Positions 18,650-31,554 of a stretch of DNA of 64,000 nt are shown here, in pieces. The notes beneath the pieces were generated by a model. The model was not told the DNA's origin. It did not search any database and saw only the letters and a list, made by a program, of their open reading frames with translations. The stretch's first letter is position 1. Each line of letters begins with the position of its first letter. The stretch is from Erwinia pyri (GTDB lineage: Bacteria > Pseudomonadota > Gammaproteobacteria > Enterobacterales > Enterobacteriaceae): NCBI RefSeq assembly GCF_030758455.1, contig NZ_CP132353.1, forward strand, positions 496,001 through 560,000, in the 5' to 3' direction. Both the position numbers and the translations under genes were made by a program.

Positions 18650-19291
18650 ATGGCTGTCGCTGCCAACAAACGTTCGGTAATGACGCTGTTTTCTGGTCCG
18701 ACTGACATTTTTAGCCATCAGGTTCGTATTGTCCTGGCGGAAAAGGGTGTCAGCGTAGAGATCGAGCAGGTAGAAATGGATAGCCTGCCCCAGGATCTGA
18801 TTGACCTCAACCCGTATCGCACCGTGCCCACTCTGGTGGATCGCGAGCTGACGCTGTACGAATCCCGCATCATCATGGAATACCTTGATGAGCGTTTCCC
18901 ACACCCGCCGCTGATGCCGGTTTACCCGGTCGCCCGTGGTGAAAGCCGTCTGATGATGCACCGTGTGGAGCAGGACTGGTACAGCCTGATGCGTAAGGTT
19001 GAAAACGGCACCGCGCAGGAAGCGGAAGCGGCGCGTAAGCAGCTGCGCGAAGAGCTGCTGGCGATCGCACCACTGTTTGCCCGCACGCCGTTCTTTATGA
19101 GCGAAGAGTTCAGCCTGGTGGACTGCTACCTGGCGCCGCTGCTGTGGCGTCTGCCGCAGATGGGCATTGAGCTGATTGGTGCGGGTTCCAAAGAGCTGAA
19201 AGGCTATATGACACGTGTCTTTGAGCGTGATTCCTTCCTGGCTTCCCTGACGGAAGCGGAACGTGAAATGCGCCTGCAAACGCGGGGCTGA
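18650..19291 (+). CDS. sspA: Stringent starvation protein A
   Basis: 213 residues (E. coli 212). GST-like fold: thioredoxin-type N-terminal domain (about 10-85, LFSGPTDIFSHQVRIVL) and an all-helical C-terminal domain. SspA binds RNA polymerase, helps transcription of stationary-phase and acid-tolerance genes, and lowers H-NS levels. The upstream in-frame ATG at 18542 is rejected because GGAGG precedes 18650. sspB follows after 5 nt. Confidence 0.96.
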   Translation: MAVAANKRSVMTLFSGPTDIFSHQVRIVLAEKGVSVEIEQVEMDSLPQDLIDLNPYRTVPTLVDRELTLYESRIIMEYLDERFPHPPLMPVYPVARGESRLMMHRVEQDWYSLMRKVENGTAQEAEAARKQLREELLAIAPLFARTPFFMSEEFSLVDCYLAPLLWRLPQMGIELIGAGSKELKGYMTRVFERDSFLASLTEAEREMRLQTRG

Positions 19292-19296
19292 TTACG

Positions 19297-19797
19297 ATGG
19301 AAATGTCGCAACTTACCGCTCGTCGCCCCTATCTGCTTCGGGCGTTCTATGACTGGCTGCTGGATAACCAGCTCACCCCGCATCTGGTAGTTGATATCAA
19401 TCTGCCAGGCGTGATGGTGCCACTGGAATATGCCCGTGACGGTCAGATTGTACTGAACATTGCGCCGCGTGCCGTGGGCAACCTGGAGCTGGGCAATGAT
19501 GAGGTCACTTTCAACGCCCGTTTTGGTGGCGTACCTCGTCAGGTAACGGTTCCGCTGGCGGCAGTAATGGCGATTTACGCACGTGAAAACGGCGCAGGCA
19601 CGATGTTTGAGCCTGAGCCAGTCTATGAAGAGGCCGGGGAGTATAACCCGGACGCTGAGCAGAACGGCACGCCGGAAACGGTTATGTCCGTGATTGATGG
19701 CGACCGCCCGGATGACAGCGTGCAGAACGATGAAGATAATCCGGACGACGAACCGCCTCCGCGCGGCGGCCGGCCGGCATTACGCGTCGTGAAATAA
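19297..19797 (+). CDS. sspB: ClpXP adaptor SspB
   Basis: 166 residues. The ssrA-tag-binding domain (about 1-112, RRPYLLRAFYDWLLDNQLTP) is joined by an acidic linker (about 115-155) to the C-terminal ClpX-binding peptide RGGRPALRVVK. It delivers ssrA-tagged proteins and the RseA fragment to ClpXP, which ties it to degS. Ends at a bidirectional terminator. Confidence 0.97.
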   Translation: MEMSQLTARRPYLLRAFYDWLLDNQLTPHLVVDINLPGVMVPLEYARDGQIVLNIAPRAVGNLELGNDEVTFNARFGGVPRQVTVPLAAVMAIYARENGAGTMFEPEPVYEEAGEYNPDAEQNGTPETVMSVIDGDRPDDSVQNDEDNPDDEPPPRGGRPALRVVK

Positions 19798-19825
19798 AAA
19801 ACGGGCCTTTCGGCCCGTTTTTTTT
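19795..19825. terminator. Bidirectional terminator between sspB and the diflavin reductase
   Basis: ACGGGCC / GGCCCGT stem with a TTTC loop, A6 on the left and T8 on the right. A second hairpin (CTGGCTGAC / GTCAGCCAG, 19834-19862) lies just past the stop of the minus-strand gene. Confidence 0.9.
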
Positions 19826-19869
19826 GTCTCTGACTGGCTGACCTGCTCTTACCGTCAGCCAGCGCGAGA

Positions 19870-21624
19870 TTAATAAACGTCGCGCAGATAGCGCTTCTCT
19901 TTCTTCAGCTGGTCAACATAGTCAGCCGCCCGCTCAGCGGACATGCCGCCAAACTGCATAATCACCTGATAGAGTGCTTTATCCACATCTTTTGCCATGC
20001 GTGAAGCGTCGCCGCAAACGTAGAAGTAGCCACCCTGTTCAAGCCAGGCAAACAGCGCTGCACCCTTTTCCATCATGCGGTTCTGCACGTAGATTTTGCT
20101 GGACTGATCGCGGGAAAAGGCGAGATCCAGATGGGTCAACAGGCCGCTCTCCTGCCAGGCCAGCAGCTCATCCTGATAGATAAAGTCATGCTCCTGATGC
20201 TGGTCGCCAAAGAACAGCCAGTTTTTACCGGTGGCTCCAACGGTCTGGCGCTCCTGCAGGAAGGCGCGGAAGGGGGCGATCCCGGTGCCGGGGCCCACCA
20301 TGATCAGCGGCGCTTCGCCGTTGGCTGGCACACGGAAGGCTTTATTTGGCGAAATAAAGATAGCAGGCTTTTCACCCCGTCCCACGCGCTCGGCCAGGTA
20401 GGAAGAGCAGACGCCGCTGCGCGCGCGACCCGTGCTCTGATAACGCAGCGTAGCGATAGTCAGATGCACCTGATTTGGATGCGCTTTCGAACTGGAGGAG
20501 ATGGAGTAAGCACGGTGCTGCAGCGGACGCAGCAGGGCTACGAACTCAGGAATGCTCAGCGAACGCGTCAGCTCAAGCTGCAGCAGATCCAGCGTGTCTT
20601 TGCCCCACAGCCAGACGCCCAGCGCTTCTTTATCATCATGCTGCAGAACGTGCCGCAGTTCCTGATTGGTGGTGTTCTGACCCACCCACTCAATCAGCTT
20701 GCGGGAAGGCTCAGAAATCTCGAACTGATAGGTCAGCAGGTCGCCCAGACTTCTGTCGAAACCGGAAACCGGCGTCTCATAGTCTGAGTTCAGCTGCGTC
20801 AGCAGTAAGGAGACCAGCGACGGATCGTTGACCGGGATCACCCCCAGCGCATCGCCCGCTTCATACTTCAGGCCACTGTCCGTTAAATCGAATTCAAAGT
20901 GGCGAATATCTTTGCCGGAGTTAGCTCCCGACAGGCGCTTGTTGGTAATCAGCGCGGCGGCATAAGGATTCTGCTTGTTGCTGCCAGGGATAACCGGCGC
21001 TTCCGGTAAGTTTTCCAGCGCCGTGCCGCTGCTGCCCGCACTGGCGGCAAACTGCGGCATTGAGGTGGCGATCCACTGATTGGATGGCTCTTCATAATCG
21101 ATATCGCAGTCAATACGATCGCTGACGCGTTTTGCGCCCAGCTGCTCCAGCCGCATGTCGATGAATTTGCCTGCCTGGCAGAAGCCATCATAGCCGGTAT
21201 CACCAATGGCCAGCACGGCGAAGTGCATCTGCTCCAGACGAGGCGCGGTGCTGGCAGAAATGGCCTGCCAGAAGAGCTGCGCATTGTCAGGCATTTCGCC
21301 TTCACCATAGGTGGAGGTGATAATCAGCACGTGACGCATGGTAGCAAAGACTTCAATATCCACTTCACCCAGGCCCTGCACCACAGGCACCAGGCCCTGC
21401 GCGCGGGCAGCTTTGGCGGCACTCTGCGCTAAGGCTTCTGCATTCCCGGTCTGAGAGCCAAACAGAATATGCAGCTGAGTCGTGGCCGCCGCGGTGGTTC
21501 CGGCAACCTGTTTATTGTCTTCCAGCACCAGCAGGCGCGAGTGCAGCCCGGCGAGAAACCCCGCCAGCCAGTATTTCTGGTCGCCATTAAAAGGCGCATC
21601 TTCAGGAATGTAAGGAATTTTCAT
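19870..21624 (-). CDS. CysJ-like NADPH diflavin reductase next to the long glutamate synthase
   Basis: 584 residues. Domain order is that of sulfite reductase alpha (CysJ): a flavodoxin FMN domain (about 50-190; SQTGN at 57-61, TSTYGEGEMPDN), a connecting and FAD domain with the RAYSISSSS motif, then the NADP(H) domain (GPGTGIAPFRAF) and the terminal RYLRDVY. Electrons would pass NADPH to FAD to FMN. No cysI or cysH is adjacent. It starts 54 nt after the stop of the long glutamate synthase on the same strand with no terminator between, so it probably serves that enzyme (inference). A plain sulfite-reductase role cannot be excluded. The N-terminus (IPEDAPFNGDQKYWLAGFLA) is unlike recalled E. 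coli CysJ. Confidence 0.85.
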   Translation of the reverse strand: MKIPYIPEDAPFNGDQKYWLAGFLAGLHSRLLVLEDNKQVAGTTAAATTQLHILFGSQTGNAEALAQSAAKAARAQGLVPVVQGLGEVDIEVFATMRHVLIITSTYGEGEMPDNAQLFWQAISASTAPRLEQMHFAVLAIGDTGYDGFCQAGKFIDMRLEQLGAKRVSDRIDCDIDYEEPSNQWIATSMPQFAASAGSSGTALENLPEAPVIPGSNKQNPYAAALITNKRLSGANSGKDIRHFEFDLTDSGLKYEAGDALGVIPVNDPSLVSLLLTQLNSDYETPVSGFDRSLGDLLTYQFEISEPSRKLIEWVGQNTTNQELRHVLQHDDKEALGVWLWGKDTLDLLQLELTRSLSIPEFVALLRPLQHRAYSISSSSKAHPNQVHLTIATLRYQSTGRARSGVCSSYLAERVGRGEKPAIFISPNKAFRVPANGEAPLIMVGPGTGIAPFRAFLQERQTVGATGKNWLFFGDQHQEHDFIYQDELLAWQESGLLTHLDLAFSRDQSSKIYVQNRMMEKGAALFAWLEQGGYFYVCGDASRMAKDVDKALYQVIMQFGGMSAERAADYVDQLKKEKRYLRDVY

Positions 21625-21678
21625 CGGTTTTCTGTACTCAATCCCGTTTCGTCATATTCAGTCAAAGTGGGTAAACCG

Positions 21679-24600
21679 TCAGGATAATTTCCCGACGGCA
21701 GCAGCGATCTCTGGCAGAGCAGCCCGCGCAAACAGCTCTTCAAAATCAGGCAGCCCGCCCAGCACTTCTCTGTTCCGCGCATCCTGATAGATGATCCAGC
21801 CGTAGGTGGCCAGGCTGTCCATTGAACGAATGTTTCGCTGCGTCAGGGCCGCTTTGTAGTCGGCCATGCGCTTCGCTGCTATCAGGCAGGCCAGCTCATC
21901 ATCACTGTAATTTTCAATCGCCGAGCGTGCATGACGCTGCAGTTTAGCGATCAGCGAGAAGTCCTCTGTCATCAACAGATTACGAACCGCTTTCTCTACC
22001 GCAGCATCCTCTACCGGCGTGCCTTTCGGCAGGCGAGAGAGCGCCAGTTGCTGAGCGAAGCTGAGAACGGTGTAGTTGTTGAGCAACACAAACATCTCTT
22101 GCGTGTCCGTTGCGCCATAAGCGGGGACCGCACCGTTAGCGATAGATTTTTTCAAGCGCCACGCCGTCTTGAACTTTGTCACCTGATGGCCTGCCAGTGC
22201 AGTGGAAAGCTCTTCCAGCAGATCCTTGCGGCTCTTCGCTTTCAGAATTTCCGTGCTCTCCTGATAGAGCAGCAGCGAACGCGGCATCACGTAGACAAAG
22301 TGGTGGCACTCGGTTTCCCAGTGCTCAAGCAGCCAGGCCGCACGAGGTGACTGGGTCGCTTCCAGATGCCAGTTCAGCATCGCCAGCACCGCCTCTTTGT
22401 GCACGCGCGCCATTTCGTTGTCGTCAGCAATGGAGCCAAACAGCACCGAATCTCCGGCGGCCGAAGCGGCCAGTGTGCCGTACGGGTCGTACTGGTATGC
22501 GAAACCGCCGCTCATGCCGTTGCCGAAGCCGGTACCGTATGTGCCCAGGTTAAGGATGGCGCCGTTGGTCATATATTCACAGCAGAAATCGCCTACGCCT
22601 TCCACAACCGCGGTGGCGCCGGAGTTACGCACCGCAAAGCGGTCACCCGCCTGGCCCTGCACAAACAGACGGCCACCGGTGGCGCCAAACAGGGCGAAGT
22701 TACCAATCAGCACGTTGCCTTCAGCATCCTGAGAGCCGCCGCCGGGTGAGGTCACCACAATTTCGCCACCACACTGTCCTTTGCCTACGCCGTCGTTGCA
22801 GGTACCGGTGTGCTTCATCTGCATACCGTCGTTGCAGAAGACGCCGTAGGACTGACCTGCGGATCCTGAGGTAGTAATGTTCACCGTGGCAGGCGCAAGG
22901 TAGTGACGCCCGCGATCGTCCAGCAGCGCAGCCGGGATGTTCGCCAGCTGTTCTTTTTTCAATTCATGGTTCAGCAGACGTTCGATATCAATCGCCAACT
23001 GACCGCCCACGCTCTTGTTGCGGTTGTTCAGAACAATATTGTTGCCGAACTGAATAGCTGTTTTACCCTGATCGACCAGCTCCAGTTTCAACTGCTCTAA
23101 CCAGCGACTATCCAGTTCAAAATCTTTTTCCAGATATACCGGATGGGCGATTTTCAGCTCAGGCACCACGGTCAGCATGGCGCGGAAATCGAGCTTACCG
23201 ACTTCCAGCGGGTGATCCATCAGGTGCAGCAAATCGGAGCGACCGCGCGCTTCACGCAGCGAGCGTAAGCCCAGGCGTGCCAGGATCTCACGCACGTCGT
23301 GCGCCACGTTGATAAAGTACTGCGCCAGCTGACGCGGATCGCCATCAAAGGCTTCGGCGTTGGTGGTCAGGCCGGCCGGGCACTTCACGTTACAGTTTTT
23401 CGCCATCACGCACTTCAGCATCATCAGCGCAGTGGTGCCGAATTCGAAGCTGTCTCCGCCCAGCAGGGCTGATTTCACCACGTCGCTGCCGGTTTGCTGA
23501 GCGCCTGAGCAGCGCAGCAGCACTTTTTCACGCAGCCCATTCGCACAGAGCGCCTGATGAACTTCCGCGATACCAATCTCGGCAACGCGGCCAGTGTATT
23601 TCAGGCTGGTGACGGAAGCCGCACCGGTGCCGCCGGTATTGCCTGCAACGTTAATTACATCGGCGCCCGCTTTCGCTACGCCAACGGCGATGGTGCCTAT
23701 TCCTTCAGAAGAGACCAGCTTCACGATAACGCGCACGCGGGCCGCTTTACAGTCGTGGATCAGCTGAGCCAAATCCTCGATGGAATAGGTGTCATGGTGC
23801 GGAGGCGGGGAGACCAGCTCCACGCCAGGCGTACCGCCACGAGCCGCGGCGATTTCAACCGTGACTTTCGCGGAAGGGAGCTGGCCGCCTTCACCCGGTT
23901 TCGCGCCCTGACCAATTTTAATCTCCAGCTCTTCCAGCATCGGGTCGGCCAGATAAGCGGCCCAGACGCCGAAACGACCGGAGGCGAGCTGTTTGATACG
24001 GGACGCACGAATGGTGCCGTGGCGCGAGTAGTGCTCGCCGCCTTCGCCACAGTTGCTCATGCCGCCAACCATATTTGTTCCGTGCGCTACCGCTTCGTGA
24101 GCCGGTGCAACCAGTGCGCCGTGGCTCATCGCGCCAGAGGCAAAGGTACGGGTGATCTCGCTGGCTGGCTGGATCTCATTCAGCGGCAGAGAGGGGGCGG
24201 AGGTAAAGATGCGTGACAGATATTCCGCCGCTTTACCTGTTGCGGCCAGGTGCAGTGCGCCGGTGACGATTTCACTGTCGCCGATTTCGTCGGTGAAACG
24301 GGTTTTCAGCGCGCTGAAGAGTGCCGCCAGACGCTCTTTTTCCGGCTTCAGGCCAACGATGGTGTCGGTCAGACGCAGGGTAAAGTAGCCTTCACGACCT
24401 TCCATCGCTTCACACACCAGTCCACGGGTAGCAAACCCATTGTTGGTAAGCGAATAGCGGCCCAGCTTACGGGCGAATTCTGCCTGGCTGTCCACATGGG
24501 TCAGATCGGCAGGAAACGCCAGGATATCGCGCAGCGCCGCCGGGCGACGTTTACGCTCCTGATTCATCAGGCTGGAGAATTCACGGTAGTCCGGCGTAAT

Positions 24601-27210
24601 GGTAAAGTTATCAATCACGTCGTTCGGGATGCGCTCAAAGCTGCTGTCCGCAAAGGAGTCAGGCTTGATGTTAAATGCATTATCCAGCTTGGCCAGCGTC
24701 AGCAGACGGATAAACTGATCTTCATCGCGTGGCTTGTCAGCAAAGCGGACAGGCTGCTCTGTCATGTCGATAAAGGTTCGTACGGCAATGGTGCCGTAAG
24801 AGTGGCCCGCACCTTCTGCGCGCTCTTTAAACAGGCCCAGTAACGGCACTTCAGCTTCACCCTGGATCTTCAGCGAGCTCTGATGCCAGTCCACGGCCAT
24901 CTGCGCGATAGTGGCAAAGCCTGCGCCGCCTACCGGCGTTTTGATATTCGGGAAATATTTCTTCAACACGCGATCTTCAGTATTCAGGAAGTTCGGCTCG
25001 AAGAATTCGCCACAGCTGTAGCTTTCTACGGTACACAGGCCCACTTTGCCCATGGTTTTCATCAGCGCTTTTTCCGCAGCTTTGGCATAGCGTTTAAAGG
25101 CTTTATTGCCTTCCTCACCCTCACCAAATTTCTCTTCGGCCCGCATCTGCACGCCCAGCGGATAGATTGCCGACGCACCAAAGCCCAGCGCTGCTGCAAT
25201 GTGGTGTGAGGAGATGCTCTGGCCGCTTTCGACAACCAGAGAGACATCGAGGCGTAACCCTTCCTGCACCAGGCGCTGGTTGATAGCAGAGACCACCAGC
25301 AGCATAGGAATAGCGGCGCGGGTAGAGGAGATATGGCGGTCAGTCAGGACGGCGATACCGCCCTGCTCACGGGCAAAGTCCACCACCTGCTGCGCAAGAT
25401 CGTCAATCGCTTTTTCCAGCGCATTCGCATTGTCGAGGCGGTTTTGCGGTTCGGTTCCTGTCACCGGTGTATAGAGCATGTCAAAGCGAGCATAAGGCGC
25501 CACGCTCTGTTCACGCAGCTGCAGCATATCCAGGTGAGTCAGGATTGGCGTAGGCACAATGATCTGACGGCCTTTGCTTCTGCCCAAATGCGGTTTAGCG
25601 CCCAGCGCGACCCGCAGCGTCATGCCGTCAACTTCACGGATAGAGTCTAAGGGTGGGTTCGTTACCTGAGCAAAGCGCTGAGAGAAGTAGTGCGCCATGC
25701 CGCCTTCATGATCGGACAAACCGTTGATGGCGTTGCCATAACCCATTGCCGAAATTTTCTCAGCGCCTGTATTCAGCATCGGGTCCATCATGAACTTGAA
25801 GCTTTCCTGGTTATAGTAGTACGCCACGAAACGCTGATACGTTTTCAGATCGCCGCTGTAGCGCAGCGGGGATCCCTGCTGCTCTGCCGGGATCACCGGA
25901 AGATCCTGCAGCGTCACGCGAGACTGCGCCAGCAGCGCCGGGTAATCTTTCTCTGTCGCCAGCTTTTCCAGCGCTTCGAGCGTGGTGTAGCTGCGTTTTT
26001 CGCTGTGATCGTAATAGAGCATGCCGCCCGCTTCGATACGGCCACGGCGCAACACGCTTTCCGGTGGGAAGGCGATCTGGCCCGCTTCTGACATGGCGCC
26101 AATATACTCAGCGGTCTCTACGGAGCGCAGAGGACGCAGGCCCAGTCGGTCCAGACGCGCGCCAATGATTTCACCATTGCCGAAGATCAGCGCAGCAGGG
26201 CCATCATTCTTCTCTTCATATAAAGAGAAGTACTCCAGCATGGCGCGGACTTCGGTGGACAAAGAGGGATCGTTTTCCCACGCTGGCGGCATCATGGAGA
26301 CAACGGCGTTAATCAGATCGAGATTGTCCTCCATCAGGCGGCTGTGGATGCTCTGATCCAGACGTGAGCTGTCGGACTGCCCTTTAGGGCGCACGATATT
26401 TTTACCGCGCGCCAGCGCCAGCGCAGATTCTGCAATGCGGTTTTTACGATCGGTATTCAGTTCACCGTTATGCGCCATCAGCCGGAACGGCTGGGCCATA
26501 GTGGTGTGCGGATCGGTATTGGTAGAGAAACGGGTATGGAAGAACAGCCCGCGCACCTGATGATCCGCATCGGTCAGATCTTTGAAGTAAGGGATCACTT
26601 CATTGGAGTTCAGGCGAGCTTTCAGAACCTGCGTGCGCGAAGAGAGCGAAAGGGGGTAGAGGCCGCCAAACTGGCTTTCGGTAAAAGCACGTGCTTCAAT
26701 ATCCAGCAGGGCGCGGTAGATGCGTTTTTCGAAGTCGTTTTGATTTTGCACATCCTGCGGGGCAGCAAACACCCATTGCACGATCGGCAGCTGGAACGGG
26801 AGGGCGGCAGGGCGTAGCACGCTGCCATCCAGCGGCAGATCGCGTTTCAGCAACAGCGCTAAACCGTAAGCGGCTAAGGTCTCTTCCACCAGACGCTCGG
26901 CGTTGGCGCGCAGCTCAACATCTTTAGGCACAAAGAAGTTGCCCACGCCAAAACGTCCTGACTCCAGCGGCTGGCCAGTAATTTTACGGAAGAAGTGCAA
27001 AGAGAGGTCCACGTTGACGCCAGCGCCATCACCCACGCCTTCCGCCGACATACCCCCGCGATGAGGTACCGTACACAGGGCACTATGTGCCATCTGAAGT
27101 ATCTCATGAGTCTGCTCGCCGTCCTTACGCGTGATAAAACCTACGCCACAGCTGTCGCTGCCTTTGGTCGGGTCGTACAAGCCATAGGGAAAAGGTTTTG
27201 TGTTGGACAT
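21679..27210 (-). CDS. Long-form glutamate-synthase-type protein (GltB-like)
   Basis: 1843 residues; the standard bacterial GltB is about 1500. Glutamate synthase makes two glutamates from glutamine, 2-oxoglutarate and reductant. Start ATG 27210 sits 6 nt after AGGAGG; an ATG at 27225 overlaps that site. C21 (GSDSCGVGF) would become the N-terminal nucleophile after loss of 20 residues. A class-II glutaminase domain follows (HNGELNTDRKN), then a central domain. About 110 extra residues (900-1009) precede the FMN domain, which has PGEGGQLP, SPPPHHDTYSIEDLAQ and GGTGAA. The cluster cysteines are C1267, C1273 and C1277, spaced x5 and x3. A GXGXG helix domain runs to the usual end (VMPR, 1641-1644), and about 190 further residues follow. 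No gltD is present. Confidence 0.9.
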   Translation of the reverse strand: MSNTKPFPYGLYDPTKGSDSCGVGFITRKDGEQTHEILQMAHSALCTVPHRGGMSAEGVGDGAGVNVDLSLHFFRKITGQPLESGRFGVGNFFVPKDVELRANAERLVEETLAAYGLALLLKRDLPLDGSVLRPAALPFQLPIVQWVFAAPQDVQNQNDFEKRIYRALLDIEARAFTESQFGGLYPLSLSSRTQVLKARLNSNEVIPYFKDLTDADHQVRGLFFHTRFSTNTDPHTTMAQPFRLMAHNGELNTDRKNRIAESALALARGKNIVRPKGQSDSSRLDQSIHSRLMEDNLDLINAVVSMMPPAWENDPSLSTEVRAMLEYFSLYEEKNDGPAALIFGNGEIIGARLDRLGLRPLRSVETAEYIGAMSEAGQIAFPPESVLRRGRIEAGGMLYYDHSEKRSYTTLEALEKLATEKDYPALLAQSRVTLQDLPVIPAEQQGSPLRYSGDLKTYQRFVAYYYNQESFKFMMDPMLNTGAEKISAMGYGNAINGLSDHEGGMAHYFSQRFAQVTNPPLDSIREVDGMTLRVALGAKPHLGRSKGRQIIVPTPILTHLDMLQLREQSVAPYARFDMLYTPVTGTEPQNRLDNANALEKAIDDLAQQVVDFAREQGGIAVLTDRHISSTRAAIPMLLVVSAINQRLVQEGLRLDVSLVVESGQSISSHHIAAALGFGASAIYPLGVQMRAEEKFGEGEEGNKAFKRYAKAAEKALMKTMGKVGLCTVESYSCGEFFEPNFLNTEDRVLKKYFPNIKTPVGGAGFATIAQMAVDWHQSSLKIQGEAEVPLLGLFKERAEGAGHSYGTIAVRTFIDMTEQPVRFADKPRDEDQFIRLLTLAKLDNAFNIKPDSFADSSFERIPNDVIDNFTITPDYREFSSLMNQERKRRPAALRDILAFPADLTHVDSQAEFARKLGRYSLTNNGFATRGLVCEAMEGREGYFTLRLTDTIVGLKPEKERLAALFSALKTRFTDEIGDSEIVTGALHLAATGKAAEYLSRIFTSAPSLPLNEIQPASEITRTFASGAMSHGALVAPAHEAVAHGTNMVGGMSNCGEGGEHYSRHGTIRASRIKQLASGRFGVWAAYLADPMLEELEIKIGQGAKPGEGGQLPSAKVTVEIAAARGGTPGVELVSPPPHHDTYSIEDLAQLIHDCKAARVRVIVKLVSSEGIGTIAVGVAKAGADVINVAGNTGGTGAASVTSLKYTGRVAEIGIAEVHQALCANGLREKVLLRCSGAQQTGSDVVKSALLGGDSFEFGTTALMMLKCVMAKNCNVKCPAGLTTNAEAFDGDPRQLAQYFINVAHDVREILARLGLRSLREARGRSDLLHLMDHPLEVGKLDFRAMLTVVPELKIAHPVYLEKDFELDSRWLEQLKLELVDQGKTAIQFGNNIVLNNRNKSVGGQLAIDIERLLNHELKKEQLANIPAALLDDRGRHYLAPATVNITTSGSAGQSYGVFCNDGMQMKHTGTCNDGVGKGQCGGEIVVTSPGGGSQDAEGNVLIGNFALFGATGGRLFVQGQAGDRFAVRNSGATAVVEGVGDFCCEYMTNGAILNLGTYGTGFGNGMSGGFAYQYDPYGTLAASAAGDSVLFGSIADDNEMARVHKEAVLAMLNWHLEATQSPRAAWLLEHWETECHHFVYVMPRSLLLYQESTEILKAKSRKDLLEELSTALAGHQVTKFKTAWRLKKSIANGAVPAYGATDTQEMFVLLNNYTVLSFAQQLALSRLPKGTPVEDAAVEKAVRNLLMTEDFSLIAKLQRHARSAIENYSDDELACLIAAKRMADYKAALTQRNIRSMDSLATYGWIIYQDARNREVLGGLPDFEELFARAALPEIAAAVGKLS

Positions 27211-27628
27211 CGGGGGCCTCCTCAACTTCTTTTTGACATTACCTATAGAGTTTCAATCACAGTAAGCTTCTGGTGGTGTGCCAGGCTCTGTATCATTTTC
27301 CTGACCGCTAAACGCGGACGCCGTTACCCCGAGCACTCCTCCAGACTTTTTATTCTGTCCTTGAAGGGGAGCTGCTCTTACATTTCCGGGTCTCTTGATA
27401 TGGAGATAACTTGCATCACGAGGGAGTCTTCTTGCTGCATAGATATGCCGAGACACTGGCCCGTTAGGAAAGCTTCCAGCGGATTTCCAACTTATCGGGA
27501 AAGCGTACTAAGGTCAAATAGCACTCTTACGGACGGTTTTTGGGTGTTAACCCTGGCTATCCTTCTGATATGTAAGCTTTTGTAAGGCTTTTTAATGGTG
27601 GGAGTTTAACAGCAAAGTCCGCAATAAG

Positions 27629-27644
27629 TGTGAGCTGTCTCACT
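27629..27644. promoter_or_regulatory. CRP-type palindrome upstream of the glutamate synthase
   Basis: TGTGAGCTGTCTCACT matches TGTGA-N6-TCACA with one mismatch. It lies about 420 bp before the synthase start. E. coli gltBDF is reported to respond to CRP, which would fit. Motif evidence only. Confidence 0.4.
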
Positions 27645-27665
27645 GTAGTGCAGTGGCCAAATCTC

Positions 27666-27682
27666 TGCACCATGCTGGTGCC
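27666..27682. promoter_or_regulatory. NtrC-like palindrome 1
   Basis: TGCACCATGCTGGTGCC: a 6-bp perfect inverted repeat GCACCA / TGGTGC around TGC, close to the NtrC consensus TGCACC-N5-GGTGCA. It lies about 460 bp upstream of the synthase start. Confidence 0.5.
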
Positions 27683-27828
27683 AGGGATATTGGTAGCAGA
27701 ATGTTCTGACAATCTTCTGTGATTTGCTGAAATGTACTGTTTTTAAACTTGTCACCTATTTGAATTAAACAACTGCTCGTTATTAGTAAAATTAATCATG
27801 TTGGGCTTGATTAAATTTTCGCTAAACG

Positions 27829-27842
27829 TGAATGATTATTCG
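27829..27842. promoter_or_regulatory. ARG-box-like site
   Basis: TGAATGATTATTCG differs from TGAATWWWWATTCA at two positions. ArgR is a reported regulator of E. coli gltBDF, so a site here is plausible. It is a single box, about 620 bp from the synthase start. Confidence 0.3.
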
Positions 27843-28256
27843 TTATCGCGAGAGCGCTGCTCTGTGAAAAGCTCGCTATCGCATTGAACCGACGTCATCA
27901 GGCAGAAAAAAAGATGAGATGAACGACTCACAGATTATGCAGTTGAAATAACGAGTCAGCCCTTTTACCACAGAAAAATGACAGCATTATTGAAAGAAAT
28001 AAAAAGGCTGATTTCCTCGCAGGTTTCAGGGGCAAACCCAGACAGCACGCAGCCTGAACAGACAATACCCTGATAAACGCAGATCCCCATCTCTGTGCCT
28101 GCCTGAAGTAGCGCATTCCTCTCTATTTATTTAAAGCGCCTGTGAAATAGGAAACCTGTGTCAGGTAAATAAGTTGTGATTAATCGCCATCTATTTCCTG
28201 TCGTTACCTGATATCGCCAGACGGCGAGTGCTTAAGCAGGCAATTCTTCTCACTGC

Positions 28257-28273
28257 TGCACCATGATGGTGCG
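28257..28273. promoter_or_regulatory. NtrC-like palindrome 2
   Basis: TGCACCATGATGGTGCG: same GCACCA / TGGTGC arms as the site at 27666, with spacer TGA. It lies about 80 bp before the arcB start and about 1050 bp from the synthase start, so its target is unclear. Confidence 0.45.
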
Positions 28274-28350
28274 ATTAAAGCGTGAACGGTTGCGTGGGTC
28301 CCGGAGGCTTTTACGGTATGATTGCCCTATCGGGCTGGAAGGAACCTTTT

Positions 28351-30681
28351 ATGAAACAAATTCGTCTGTTGGCACAATATTACGTCGATTTAATGGTGAA
28401 GTTAGGGCTGGTGCGCTTCTCTTTGCTGCTGGCTTCTGCGCTGGTTGTTCTGGCGATGATCGTCCAGATGGCGGTGACGATGGTGCTGCGCGGCCATGTT
28501 GAAAGTATCGACATGGTCCGCTCGGTCTTCTTTGGCTTACTGATCACCCCCTGGGCGGTCTACTTCCTCTCGGTGGTGGTGGAACAGCTTGAGGAGTCCC
28601 GGCAGCGCTTATCCCGGCTGGTTGATAAGCTTGAGGAGATGCGCCACCGCGATCTTGAGCTGAATCAGCAGATGAAGGAAAACATCACCCAACTGAACCA
28701 GGAAATAGCTGACCGTATCAAAGCTGAAGAGGCGCGTTTGCAGGTGATGGCCAAGCTGAAGGAAGAGATGGCGAGGCGTGAGGAGGCGCAAATCGAGCTT
28801 GAACAACAATCCTCCTTCCTGCGTTCGTTTCTTGATGCCTCTCCCGACCTGGTTTTCTATCGCAACATTGATCAGCAGTTTTCCGGCTGCAACCGCGCCA
28901 TGGAGCTGCTTACGGGCAAAAGTGAAAAACAGCTTATTGGCCTGACGCCGCGAGACGTATATGACAATGATGCCGCCTCTAAAGTTTTAGAAACCGATGA
29001 CAAAGTGTTCCGCCACAACGTATCGCTGACCTACGAGCAGTGGCTGCAGTATCCCGATGGGCGCAAAGCGTGCTTTGAGATACGTAAAGTCCCCTATTAC
29101 GACCGTATTGGTAAACGCAGCGGGCTGATGGGCTTTGGACGCGATATAACGGAACGTAAGCGCTACCAGGACGCTTTAGAGAACGCCAGCAGGGAGAAGA
29201 CCACTTTTATCTCCACCATCAGCCACGAGCTTCGTACGCCGCTTAATGGCATTGTGGGATTAAGCCGCATTCTGCTGGATACTGAGCTGAACAAAGAGCA
29301 GCTTAATTATCTTAAAACGATCCACGTCTCAGCCATCACGCTGGGCAACATTTTCAATGACGTGATCGAAATGGACAAAATCGAGCGGCGTAAAGTCCAG
29401 CTGGATATCCAGCCGGTTGACTTCACCGGTTTCCTGACCGATCTGGAAAATCTCTCCGGCTTACTGGTCCAGCCTAAGGGGCTGAAGTTCGTGCTGGAAC
29501 CCGAGCTTCCTCTCCCACACCAAATCATGACCGATGGCACCAGGCTGCGACAGATCCTGTGGAACCTTATTGGGAATGCGGTGAAGTTTACCCAGCAGGG
29601 CAGCATCGTTGTCCGGGTGGCTTACCAGGGAGAAAGCTGCCTGCGGTTTGAAGTGGAAGATTCCGGCATGGGCATCCCCCAGGATGAGCAGGATAAAATT
29701 TTCGCTATGTACTATCAGGTGAAGGATCAGCGGGGCGGGAAACCCGCTACAGGGACTGGAATTGGTCTGGCGGTCTCACGTCGTCTTGCACAGAGTATGG
29801 GAGGAGATATCAGCGTTCATAGCGCGCCGGGTACAGGCTCCTGCTTCACGCTGACGGTTAATGCGCCACGTCTTGAAGAAGCGCCAGAGGAAGCAGAGCC
29901 TGACGACGATCTTCCGCTTCCTGCGCTCCACGTGCTGCTGGTGGAAGATATTGAATTGAACGTAGTGGTCGCGCGTTCGGTGCTTGAGAAGCTCGGCAAC
30001 AGCGTAGAAGTGGCCATGACGGGTGGGGAAGCCCTTGAACTGTTCGACCCGGAAGAGTTTGACCTGGTGCTGCTGGATATTCAGCTGCCAGATATGACAG
30101 GGCTGGATGTGGCGAGGGAAATCCATCAGCGCTATGGCGATCGTCATCTGCCGCCGCTGGTCGCGCTGACGGCCAACGTGCTGAAAGATAAAAAAGAGTA
30201 TCTGGATGCCGGAATGGATGATGTGCTGAGTAAGCCGCTGGCGGTGCCCGCCCTGACCGCCATCATCAAAAAGTATTGGGATTTTCAGCAGGAAGATGAC
30301 GAGGAGCGAAAAGTGGACGAGAAGAAACTGGGACTGTTGGACGTGGCGATGCTGGAACAGTATATCGAACTGGTTGGCCCCCAGCTTATCCATCAAAGTC
30401 TGGAGATGTTTGAACAGATGATGCCTGGCTACCTTGAAGTGCTGGACTCTAATATGATGGCGCGCGATCAGAAAGGGATTGCTGAAGAGGGGCATAAAAT
30501 CAAAGGGGCAGCAGGATCGGTCGGGCTGGTGCATTTGCAGCAGCTGGCGAAGCAGATCCAGAGCCCTGAACTGCCGGCCTGGTGGGACAATGTGCAGGAG
30601 TGGATCGATGAGCTCAAACAGGAGTGGCGTAACGATGTGGCGGTGTTACGTGAATGGGTTTCGGACGCTGGAAAAAAATGA
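28351..30681 (+). CDS. arcB: Anoxic redox sensor hybrid histidine kinase ArcB
   Basis: 776 residues (E. coli 778). Two N-terminal membrane helices (about 23-45 and 55-77), a coiled coil (about 80-150), a PAS domain (about 155-270), a kinase domain with phospho-His H292 in TISHELRTPLNG, a receiver domain with D576 in LVLLDIQLPD, and a C-terminal HPt domain with H715 in EEGHKIKGAAG. ArcB senses quinone redox state and phosphorylates ArcA. Start at 28351 (MKQIRLLAQYY) by homology; 28282 adds 23 unrelated residues. Its stop codon overlaps the terminator of arcZ on the other strand. Confidence 0.97.
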   Translation: MKQIRLLAQYYVDLMVKLGLVRFSLLLASALVVLAMIVQMAVTMVLRGHVESIDMVRSVFFGLLITPWAVYFLSVVVEQLEESRQRLSRLVDKLEEMRHRDLELNQQMKENITQLNQEIADRIKAEEARLQVMAKLKEEMARREEAQIELEQQSSFLRSFLDASPDLVFYRNIDQQFSGCNRAMELLTGKSEKQLIGLTPRDVYDNDAASKVLETDDKVFRHNVSLTYEQWLQYPDGRKACFEIRKVPYYDRIGKRSGLMGFGRDITERKRYQDALENASREKTTFISTISHELRTPLNGIVGLSRILLDTELNKEQLNYLKTIHVSAITLGNIFNDVIEMDKIERRKVQLDIQPVDFTGFLTDLENLSGLLVQPKGLKFVLEPELPLPHQIMTDGTRLRQILWNLIGNAVKFTQQGSIVVRVAYQGESCLRFEVEDSGMGIPQDEQDKIFAMYYQVKDQRGGKPATGTGIGLAVSRRLAQSMGGDISVHSAPGTGSCFTLTVNAPRLEEAPEEAEPDDDLPLPALHVLLVEDIELNVVVARSVLEKLGNSVEVAMTGGEALELFDPEEFDLVLLDIQLPDMTGLDVAREIHQRYGDRHLPPLVALTANVLKDKKEYLDAGMDDVLSKPLAVPALTAIIKKYWDFQQEDDEERKVDEKKLGLLDVAMLEQYIELVGPQLIHQSLEMFEQMMPGYLEVLDSNMMARDQKGIAEEGHKIKGAAGSVGLVHLQQLAKQIQSPELPAWWDNVQEWIDELKQEWRNDVAVLREWVSDAGKK

Positions 30682-30793
30682 CCCCGACCGAAGCCGGGGT
30701 GCGCGAATACTGCGCCAACACCAGGGAAAAGGGTAACCTGCGCTATTCTGAGAAGAAGAGTTTAAAAGCACAGGCGCGGTATTGGGTAAAACG
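30672..30793 (-). ncRNA. arcZ: Hfq-binding small RNA ArcZ
   Basis: The minus strand carries CCCTGGTGTTGGCGCAG, TATTCGCGCACCCCGG and the ending GGGGTCATTTTTTT, which match the conserved 3' half of E. coli ArcZ. That half is the processed form that pairs with rpoS, flhDC and other mRNAs. The terminator stem is ACCCCGGC / GTCGGGGT capped by UUCG (30681-30700), with T7 at 30672-30678. The 3' end is well placed; the 5' end (about 30793) is set from the 121-nt E. coli length and a weak match (CTGTGC, AACTC). It converges on arcB and overlaps its stop codon. Confidence 0.9.
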
Positions 30794-31554
30794 CTCAGGA
30801 AGTACCTTAGCAAATCCTGCATCACCTGTTACGAGATTCATTAAAATGTGTGATGTTGAGCAGCGATTTCAGACAGAAAACATTAATTTGATAACACAGT
30901 CAAGCGGGAAATGATTTTTCCCGTTAAATTGACTGTTTTTTGCACAAATATGACAAATTTCAGGGCTTATTCTTTAACGCCTGCCTGCCGAAGATGTTAA
31001 GGGCGCTAGCAGAGATGCTAATAAAATTTGCCATAAATCCGTAAAGTTTAACTGTTTGTATAACATGTTCTTTTTATGAGATCAGGGTCTCGGCTCTCGG
31101 TTGCGCCTCATGGCAACACCGGGAAGCGTTCACACAAGATAAGACCGATTGATTCAGGCGTTTTAAACGGCTTTAACAATCGGGAGAAATCAGCCGTTAA
31201 AAGGGCATGTTAAAAGGTCGGGTAGAGATTCTTAATGGGTTTCCTCCCTCTTAAGATGAATTTTGCAAAAGCTTACGCATGAAATTTATAAGCGTTGTAA
31301 ATCATTCTTTTTCATCTTTAACGGTAATTATTCGCTTTACCGTAACAGGGAAAAAAGGTTCGTTTCAGGTATGGAACCGATTCCTTAAGTGCGGAAGTGG
31401 TTGAAGCAGATAGAACATTTAGGATTAAGCTGGGGAATAAACTGCCTGAACGCTATTTACAGCGTTCATCTGCTGAGGGCATTCGTTGCAAGAACGGGTG
31501 CGATCGGAGCGCTTCCCTGATGAGAATTGATAAGATAGTTATGGATATTATTGT
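30794..31554. other. Non-coding region between arcZ and mtgA (elbB absent)
   Basis: E. coli has elbB here; no ORF of that kind exists on either strand. The stretch is AT-rich and contains short inverted repeats: AACGGCT / AGCCGTT (about 31167-31198), ACGGTAA / TTACCGT (about 31320-31342) and AACGCT / AGCGTT (about 31449-31466). These look like structured leader or decayed sequence; no known RNA was recognised. The 3' part should hold the mtgA promoter, and the left end the arcZ promoter. Confidence 0.5.

Follow-up and report, generated by a model that had tools for sequence, protein, structure and literature searches.

Within the 64,000-nt stretch of Erwinia pyri DNA that was analysed (contig NZ_CP132353.1, positions 496,001 to 560,000; hereafter the window), a gene for a long glutamate synthase large subunit, here termed gltB-L, is followed on the same strand by a gene encoding a CysJ-like diflavin reductase. 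The genes, their recognizable parts and their flanks are listed below.

19297-19797: sspB, flanking the pair on the reductase side and convergent with it
19796..19823, strand not assigned: terminator-like hairpin between sspB and the pair, 12 pairs with A and T runs, found by pattern scan and listed on the plus strand
19870..21624, minus strand: CysJ-like NADPH diflavin reductase, 584 aa (open reading frame with flavodoxin, FAD and NADPH domains)
19981..20301, minus strand: NADP(H)-binding domain of the reductase, residues 442-548 (Pfam NAD_binding_1)
20398..20979, minus strand: FAD-binding domain of the reductase, residues 216-409 (Pfam FAD_binding_1)
21091..21468, minus strand: flavodoxin (FMN) domain of the reductase, residues 53-178 (Pfam Flavodoxin_1)
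21625..21678, minus strand: intergenic gap between gltB-L and the reductase gene, 54 nt, with no minus-strand terminator-like site listed
21679..27210, minus strand: gltB-L, long glutamate synthase large subunit, 1843 aa (open reading frame with domains)
21682..22245, minus strand: C-terminal tail of gltB-L, residues about 1656-1843 (~190 aa), an all-helical domain absent from standard GltB
23380..23412, minus strand: 3Fe-4S cysteines Cys1267, Cys1273 and Cys1277 of gltB-L, spaced CX5CX3C (motif in 77/77 long GltBs)
24211..24723, minus strand: stretch of gltB-L (residues about 830-1000) with two insertions, immediately preceding the FMN/synthase domain; neither E. coli GltB nor the aligned solved GltBs have them
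28282-30681: arcB, flanking the pair on the gltB-L side

Both frames are free of internal stops and lie where the initial annotation had placed them, as a GltB-like and a CysJ-like gene on one strand 54 nt apart; gltB-L measures 1843 aa from an ATG (27210-21679) and 1848 aa from a listed TTG. The gap likewise contains no listed minus-strand terminator, as had been described. The strong terminator claimed beyond the pair corresponds to the 12-pair hairpin, which is listed on the plus strand; the pattern scan returned six terminator-like sites against a mean of 9.7 in shuffled sequence, hence no excess. By our own reading of the letters this hairpin is symmetric and could also serve the convergent minus-strand pair. 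The pattern scan gave no promoter-like site 5′ of gltB-L, and no Rfam RNA element was found at gathering scores in positions 19000-31500. The neighbours are sspB and arcB, and in E. coli K-12 the gene order is arcB, yhcC, gltB, gltD. The pair therefore occupies the arcB/sspB slot that is the site of gltBD in E. coli, in agreement with the flanks first proposed; yhcC had no match in the window.

Four Pfam domains, GATase_2, Glu_syn_central, Glu_synthase and GXGXG, were recognized in the gltB-L product, and its score of 1055 bits with the NCBIfam glutamate synthase large subunit model PRK11750 exceeds the cut-off of 1047. Its glutaminase nucleophile is Cys21, located behind a short propeptide, and the synthase-domain motifs GAKPGEGGQLP and SPPPHHD are conserved; identity to E. 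coli GltB is 30% over the N-terminal half and 41% over the FMN/synthase half. The catalytic cysteine and the three cluster cysteines are found in all 77 near full-length long GltBs, with the cluster spacing CX5CX3C where E. coli GltB has CX5CX4C. An extra loop between GEGGE and KQ(I/V)ASGRF marks ferredoxin-dependent enzymes. The corresponding GEGGE-to-KQxAS stretch comprises 13 residues in 77/77 long GltBs, the same as in E. coli GltB, and is longer in the Synechocystis chain; assignment of gltB-L to the ferredoxin-type GOGATs was rejected on the absence of this loop.

A structural model of 1104 residues of gltB-L has a mean pLDDT of 69.8 and its seven best matches are solved glutamate synthases; the half of the protein that it covers is predicted to adopt the GOGAT fold, and the model says no more than this. 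Within this otherwise middling model, residues about 860-1019, which contain the second insertion, form a block with pLDDT values of 73-91, and the second insertion is predicted to be a folded alpha/beta unit. A Pfam search of residues about 811-1019 returned only TPR_5 at an E-value of 0.17, below cut-off. For residues 1580-1843 a mainly helical fold is predicted with a mean pLDDT of 87.4. The tail model matched nothing in the PDB at an E-value of 0.001 using Foldseek, and the last 264 residues matched nothing in Pfam; a weak Foldseek match likens the first part of the tail to the end of a normal GltB, with which a profile search agrees. The tail is a candidate docking part, and by these features gltB-L is a distinct, long type of GltB.

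The cofactor motifs of the reductase are well conserved among 85 reductases, with the NADPH motif GPGTG and the FMN loop TYGEG present in 85/85 and the FAD motif in 84/85, while a third FMN pattern (72/85) and G.CS (82/85) are less uniform. In public annotation the pair reductases are named sulfite reductase subunit alpha or cysJ, and the window's protein exceeds the NCBIfam cut-off of PRK06214, sulfite reductase subunit alpha (462.6 vs 432 bits), both of which would fit a spare sulfite reductase flavoprotein that has come to lie beside gltB by chance. The protein falls, however, below the curated cysJ cut-offs (606.9 vs 668.15 bits for TIGR01931 and 507.3 vs 838 for PRK10953), and the genome's own CysJ, which is 40% identical to it, is encoded elsewhere, adjoining a gene that passes the CysI cut-off. 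Furthermore, cysI was found near none of 91 pair loci, as compared with 24 of 25 CysJ loci serving as a control, although some genomes were fetched twice. When the separate clade of these reductases and the retention of the pair at all assessable loci (see below) are also considered, a chance neighbour of this kind is extremely improbable. A displaced cysJ was rejected as well, the genome having its own cysJ beside cysI. Conservation of the pair independently of cysI, which the initial annotation had suggested as a check, is borne out by these counts.

In a tree of 68 reductases, constructed by a quick method with SH-aLRT as the only support measure, a branch (SH-aLRT 99) separates 34 GltB-linked reductases plus one Paracoccus protein from the rest, and 25 CysJ proteins (99) and eight long fused frames (100) are each set apart. 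Because the Paracoccus protein, which has no GltB beside it, groups with the GltB-linked reductases, these alone need two changes on the tree. The protein in question is encoded on plasmid p2 of Paracoccus sp. TOH (L137:8914-10617), where the neighbouring genes encode an aldehyde dehydrogenase, a glutamine synthetase-like protein and a glutamine amidotransferase; it is possibly the same module shifted to a third job. The eight fused frames (L040, L041, L042, L043, L139, L146, L148 and L149) are about 1250-1450 aa in length and include CysJ-like diflavin modules that constitute their own clade beside the GltB-linked reductases. The sole annotated frame among them, from Paraburkholderia (L139), is described as a bifunctional nitrate reductase/sulfite reductase flavoprotein.

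Relatives of gltB-L were sought by a scan of genome contigs with the FMN/cluster region, which yielded at least 553, of which the best 80 were kept. Among these best 80 loci, the reductase gene lies 3′ of the long GltB gene on the same strand in 77, and in the remaining three the contig ends inside GltB, so that the pair is kept at 77 of 77 assessable loci. Some of the locus counts in this analysis include duplicates, L054 and L124 being alike in contig and coordinates and L035 and L076 deriving from one P. ananatis contig. The best 80 comprise 79 from Pseudomonadota (52 gamma, 21 alpha, four beta, two unplaced) and one from Actinomycetota, and a local oddity or an assembly artefact was rejected as an explanation, given the recurrence of the pair in many orders and two phyla. 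The gap between the two genes has a median length of 50 nt and is shorter than 200 nt at 74 of the 77 loci, the three larger gaps (L086, L088, L101) being those in which the GltB frame is broken. Altogether, seven loci (L071, L086, L088, L101, L117, L123 and L129) have a long GltB frame in two or three pieces and the reductase in one frame; the splits represent either assembly errors or broken genes.

The same association is seen in other collections. Six of 149 genomes from the family (about one per genus) encode a reductase at least 79% identical to that of the window, and a long GltB gene adjoins it in all six. Nine plasmid records encode a long GltB (59-69% identity). They derive from Shinella, Neorhizobium, Sinorhizobium, Ketogulonicigenium and Tsukamurella, hence include an actinobacterium, and are also the nine with the best reductase matches (50-62%); in the four that were read with their annotation the two genes stand side by side. 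A model of the gltB-L tail matched six of 398 genomes from the phylum, and the same six carry the top reductases (at least 565 bits), the next matches scoring at most 541 bits in CysJ-sized or longer frames. The reductase is therefore as a rule not found apart from the long synthase, whereas its occurrence alone in most genomes would have told against the initial annotation, and the one exception seen is the plasmid-borne Paracoccus gene. Pairwise distances between GltB proteins are correlated with those between reductases (r 0.977; best of 999 permutations 0.24) over the 77 rows in which GltB was nearly full-length and a reductase was matched, drawn from 88 rows of which 85 had a reductase, the rows not being independent of one another. 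The sequences indicate that the two genes share one history. Adjacency and co-descent are evidence of partnership and not of mechanism.

The window's genome (4.76 Mb in six contigs, rated 100% complete) encodes one GltB. The initial annotation had noted the absence of a GltD gene at the locus, and this extends to the whole genome: PF14691, the N-terminal Fe-S domain of GltD, had no match in it, as compared with matches in nine of 14 control genomes including that of E. coli, and a protein search with E. coli GltD gave nothing beyond a 29.6-bit match of 99 residues within a frame of 700 aa. The presence of gltD at another site and of a second, standard gltB, both of which the initial annotation had suggested should be sought, was accordingly rejected. 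The genome also contains a single glutamate dehydrogenase-type match (G000:C1:2117386-2118084; PF00208, in a 428-aa frame), which may correspond to the dual-coenzyme glutamate dehydrogenase described for P. ananatis.

Matches to Glu_syn_central (PF04898) and PF14691 were counted in 57 pair-bearing genomes, 10 of them taken from the genome surveys and 47 from 48 loci picked for spread among the best 80 of the at least 553 relatives (L104 was left out); two entries are identical in contig coordinates (G546 = G146), leaving 56 distinct genomes. The raw count gave 29 genomes with one GltB, 27 of them without PF14691, and 28 with more than one, in each of which, according to the printed coordinates, the PF14691 match and the standard GltB share a strand and are no more than 4 kb apart. 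Two genomes required sorting. In G548 a piece of a standard gltB is cut by the contig end and followed by a gltD passing TIGR01317, and this genome was moved to the two-GltB group. G566 encodes a single GltD-like protein scoring below every GltD cut-off, resembling a protein of G537 that adjoins a dihydroorotate dehydrogenase-like gene and that we take to be PreT, and it was retained as GltD-less. After sorting, long GltB is the only GltB in 28 of 57 genomes, 27 of them without PF14691 and one with the protein below GltD cut-offs, and it accompanies a standard GltB in 29, with a PF14691 match in 29/29 (Fisher test 7e-17, over rows of which many are Erwiniaceae and which are not independent). 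Such counts of genomes and loci are not independent because many single-GltB genomes belong to Erwiniaceae and some genomes or species were fetched twice. Outside Erwiniaceae, long GltB is the sole GltB in two genomes from other families of the class (G498, G346) and in Pseudovibrio hongkongensis, as well as in a Tepidamorphaceae MAG, a Hydrogenovibrio MAG and an alphaproteobacterial MAG (G566), although MAGs may be incomplete. GltD goes with the standard GltB and not with the long one.

The presence of both a standard GltB and a GltD-domain protein in 29 of the 57 genomes means that the pair could do something else there, and the identity of just 30-41% between long GltB and E. coli GltB would also suit a specialised amidotransferase making a product other than glutamate, an alternative that the initial annotation had left open. 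Against this, long GltB is the sole GltB in the other 28 genomes, the synthase motifs are conserved, and a requirement for the gene has been reported in Pantoea. P. ananatis AJ13355 is stated to have no close homologue of the E. coli GOGAT, with 64% identity between the putative gltB product and the large subunit of Agrobacterium tumefaciens, and its gltB knockout is reported to be a glutamate auxotroph (PMC12364357, 2025, itself citing a 2012 genome paper). The report of auxotrophy is thus second-hand, and it bears on gltB rather than on the reductase. The word gltD is absent from the text of the 2025 paper, and its passages on gltB make no mention of a reductase. P. ananatis LMG 2665 was found to encode the long GltB only, with no PF14691 match; its GltB shares 68-70% identity with long GltBs of rhizobia, as against about 36% between the window's protein and the standard rhizobial type. 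With no other GltB in LMG 2665, and with rhizobial identities that fit the long and not the standard type, the published AJ13355 gltB is very probably of the long type. A different product is disfavoured by the auxotrophy of the knockout combined with the single, long GltB of P. ananatis, and it must be considered very unlikely.

As regards earlier descriptions, the forms of GOGAT set out in a review (PMC8097209, 2021) are those fed by GltD, those fed by ferredoxin, fused NADH enzymes and the separate domains of Archaea, with no diflavin-fed form among them in the passages concerned, and the word diflavin is absent from its text. Among the open-licence papers in PubMed Central that were listed by title and opening of the abstract, none dealt with the pairing of gltB-L with a diflavin reductase. 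The need for gltB in P. ananatis is thus already published, and no description of its pairing with the reductase was found among the papers listed.

The chromosomal position of the pair varies between lineages. At 36 of the 91 pair loci, all of them enteric, arcB lies beside the pair, and in 34 of these 36 sspB does also; the other 55, the enteric G087 among them, have neither. In Erwinia L037 and Winslowiella L109, arcB is located on one side and no sspB occurs within the stretch on the other, the slot being rearranged in these two Erwiniaceae. In G087 (L153, L039), an E. coli-like gltBD (87% and 84%) is situated between arcB-like and sspA-like neighbours and the pair is found elsewhere, making this a natural strain for comparison of both systems. 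In Vibrio fortis and a near relative (L108, L052), the pair and a standard gltB-gltD are direct neighbours with the same orientation. In the Erwiniaceae genomes examined the pair is the only GOGAT and resides in the old gltBD slot. The closest non-enteric relatives are from Comamonadaceae (Corticibacter, Lampropedia), with GltB 80-82% and reductase about 74% identical to the P. ananatis proteins, which fits arrival by transfer, gltBD having been replaced in place. The pair is likely to be passed between bacteria as a single module and to have become the sole GOGAT of Pantoea, of Erwinia and of several lineages unrelated to them.

The initial annotation had proposed that the reductase powers the synthase, as a third way of supplying electrons to this reaction, and this reading is supported, both the search for a gltD and the distribution of the reductase having come out in its favour. 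The pair very likely represents a two-component NADPH-dependent glutamate synthase in which a diflavin reductase takes the place of GltD or ferredoxin, the electron transfer being deduced. In the sulfite reductase system, CysJ passes electrons from NADPH via FAD and FMN to the Fe-S centre of its partner CysI, and the order of carriers in the pair is suggested by analogy with this. As in known GltB proteins, and as judged from the conserved domains, glutamine would be hydrolysed at Cys21 of the large subunit and the ammonia channelled to the FMN/synthase site, where it would be added to 2-oxoglutarate and the resulting imino acid converted to glutamate by reduced FMN. On the reductase, electrons would pass from NADPH to FAD and then to FMN; its flavodoxin domain would dock on the synthase and deliver single electrons to the 3Fe-4S cluster, from which they would reach the synthase FMN. 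Docking and regulation are the likely roles of the helical tail and the insertions of long GltB. Adaptation to a new partner would be expected to show in these segments and in the altered cluster spacing.

Transfer from reductase to synthase is probably direct, with the tail or the insertions serving as the dock. Free flavodoxin or ferredoxin could instead feed the long GltB, with the reductase only reducing that carrier or acting in parallel. Such an arrangement would be in keeping with cofactors on the GltB side that are like those of ferredoxin-type GOGAT, for which one FMN and one 3Fe-4S cluster are described and GltD is not needed (in the relevant part of PMC8097209), and with two other weak flavodoxin-like matches in the genome. 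A free carrier is unneeded, however, because the reductase has its own flavodoxin domain, with TYGEG in every sequence examined, and the GEGGE-KQ stretch of the long GltBs is as short as that of E. coli and not extended as in the Synechocystis ferredoxin enzyme. Supply by a free carrier is therefore unlikely, and the preferred reading is still that of a diflavin reductase dedicated to the synthase.

GOGAT is one of the main gates of nitrogen into biomass. If the proposed function is correct, there are probably hundreds of genomes with a differently wired GOGAT (at least 553 stretches encode a relative, of which the best 80 were examined), in which the gene for the electron supply is annotated as a sulfite reductase. 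This would bear on metabolic models of Pantoea, which has biotechnological uses, and the pair would offer a natural test of GOGAT working without 4Fe-4S clusters.

Compared with the GltB-GltD enzymes of E. coli and Azospirillum, the pair shares the order of glutaminase, central, FMN/synthase and beta-helix domains, the catalytic cysteine and the three cluster cysteines, the placement of the large-subunit gene first in a two-gene unit and the chromosomal slot found in E. coli. It differs in lacking GltD, and so the two 4Fe-4S clusters of that protein, in having a diflavin reductase as partner, and in a large subunit with extra segments, a tail and the CX5CX3C rather than the CX5CX4C spacing. 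Unlike the ferredoxin-dependent GOGATs of cyanobacteria and plastids, it is without the loop seen in Synechocystis and possesses a dedicated NADPH diflavin reductase gene and the tail. The reductase has the same three domains as CysJ and the same order of carriers, at 40% identity to the genome's CysJ, but it belongs to a separate clade, scores below the cysJ model cut-off and is linked to gltB-L and not to cysI. A further parallel is with the nitrate reductase/CysJ-like fusion (42-47% identity), in which a diflavin module has likewise been captured by a different enzyme, although the fusion is one long frame in its own clade whereas the reductase of the pair is encoded by a separate gene.
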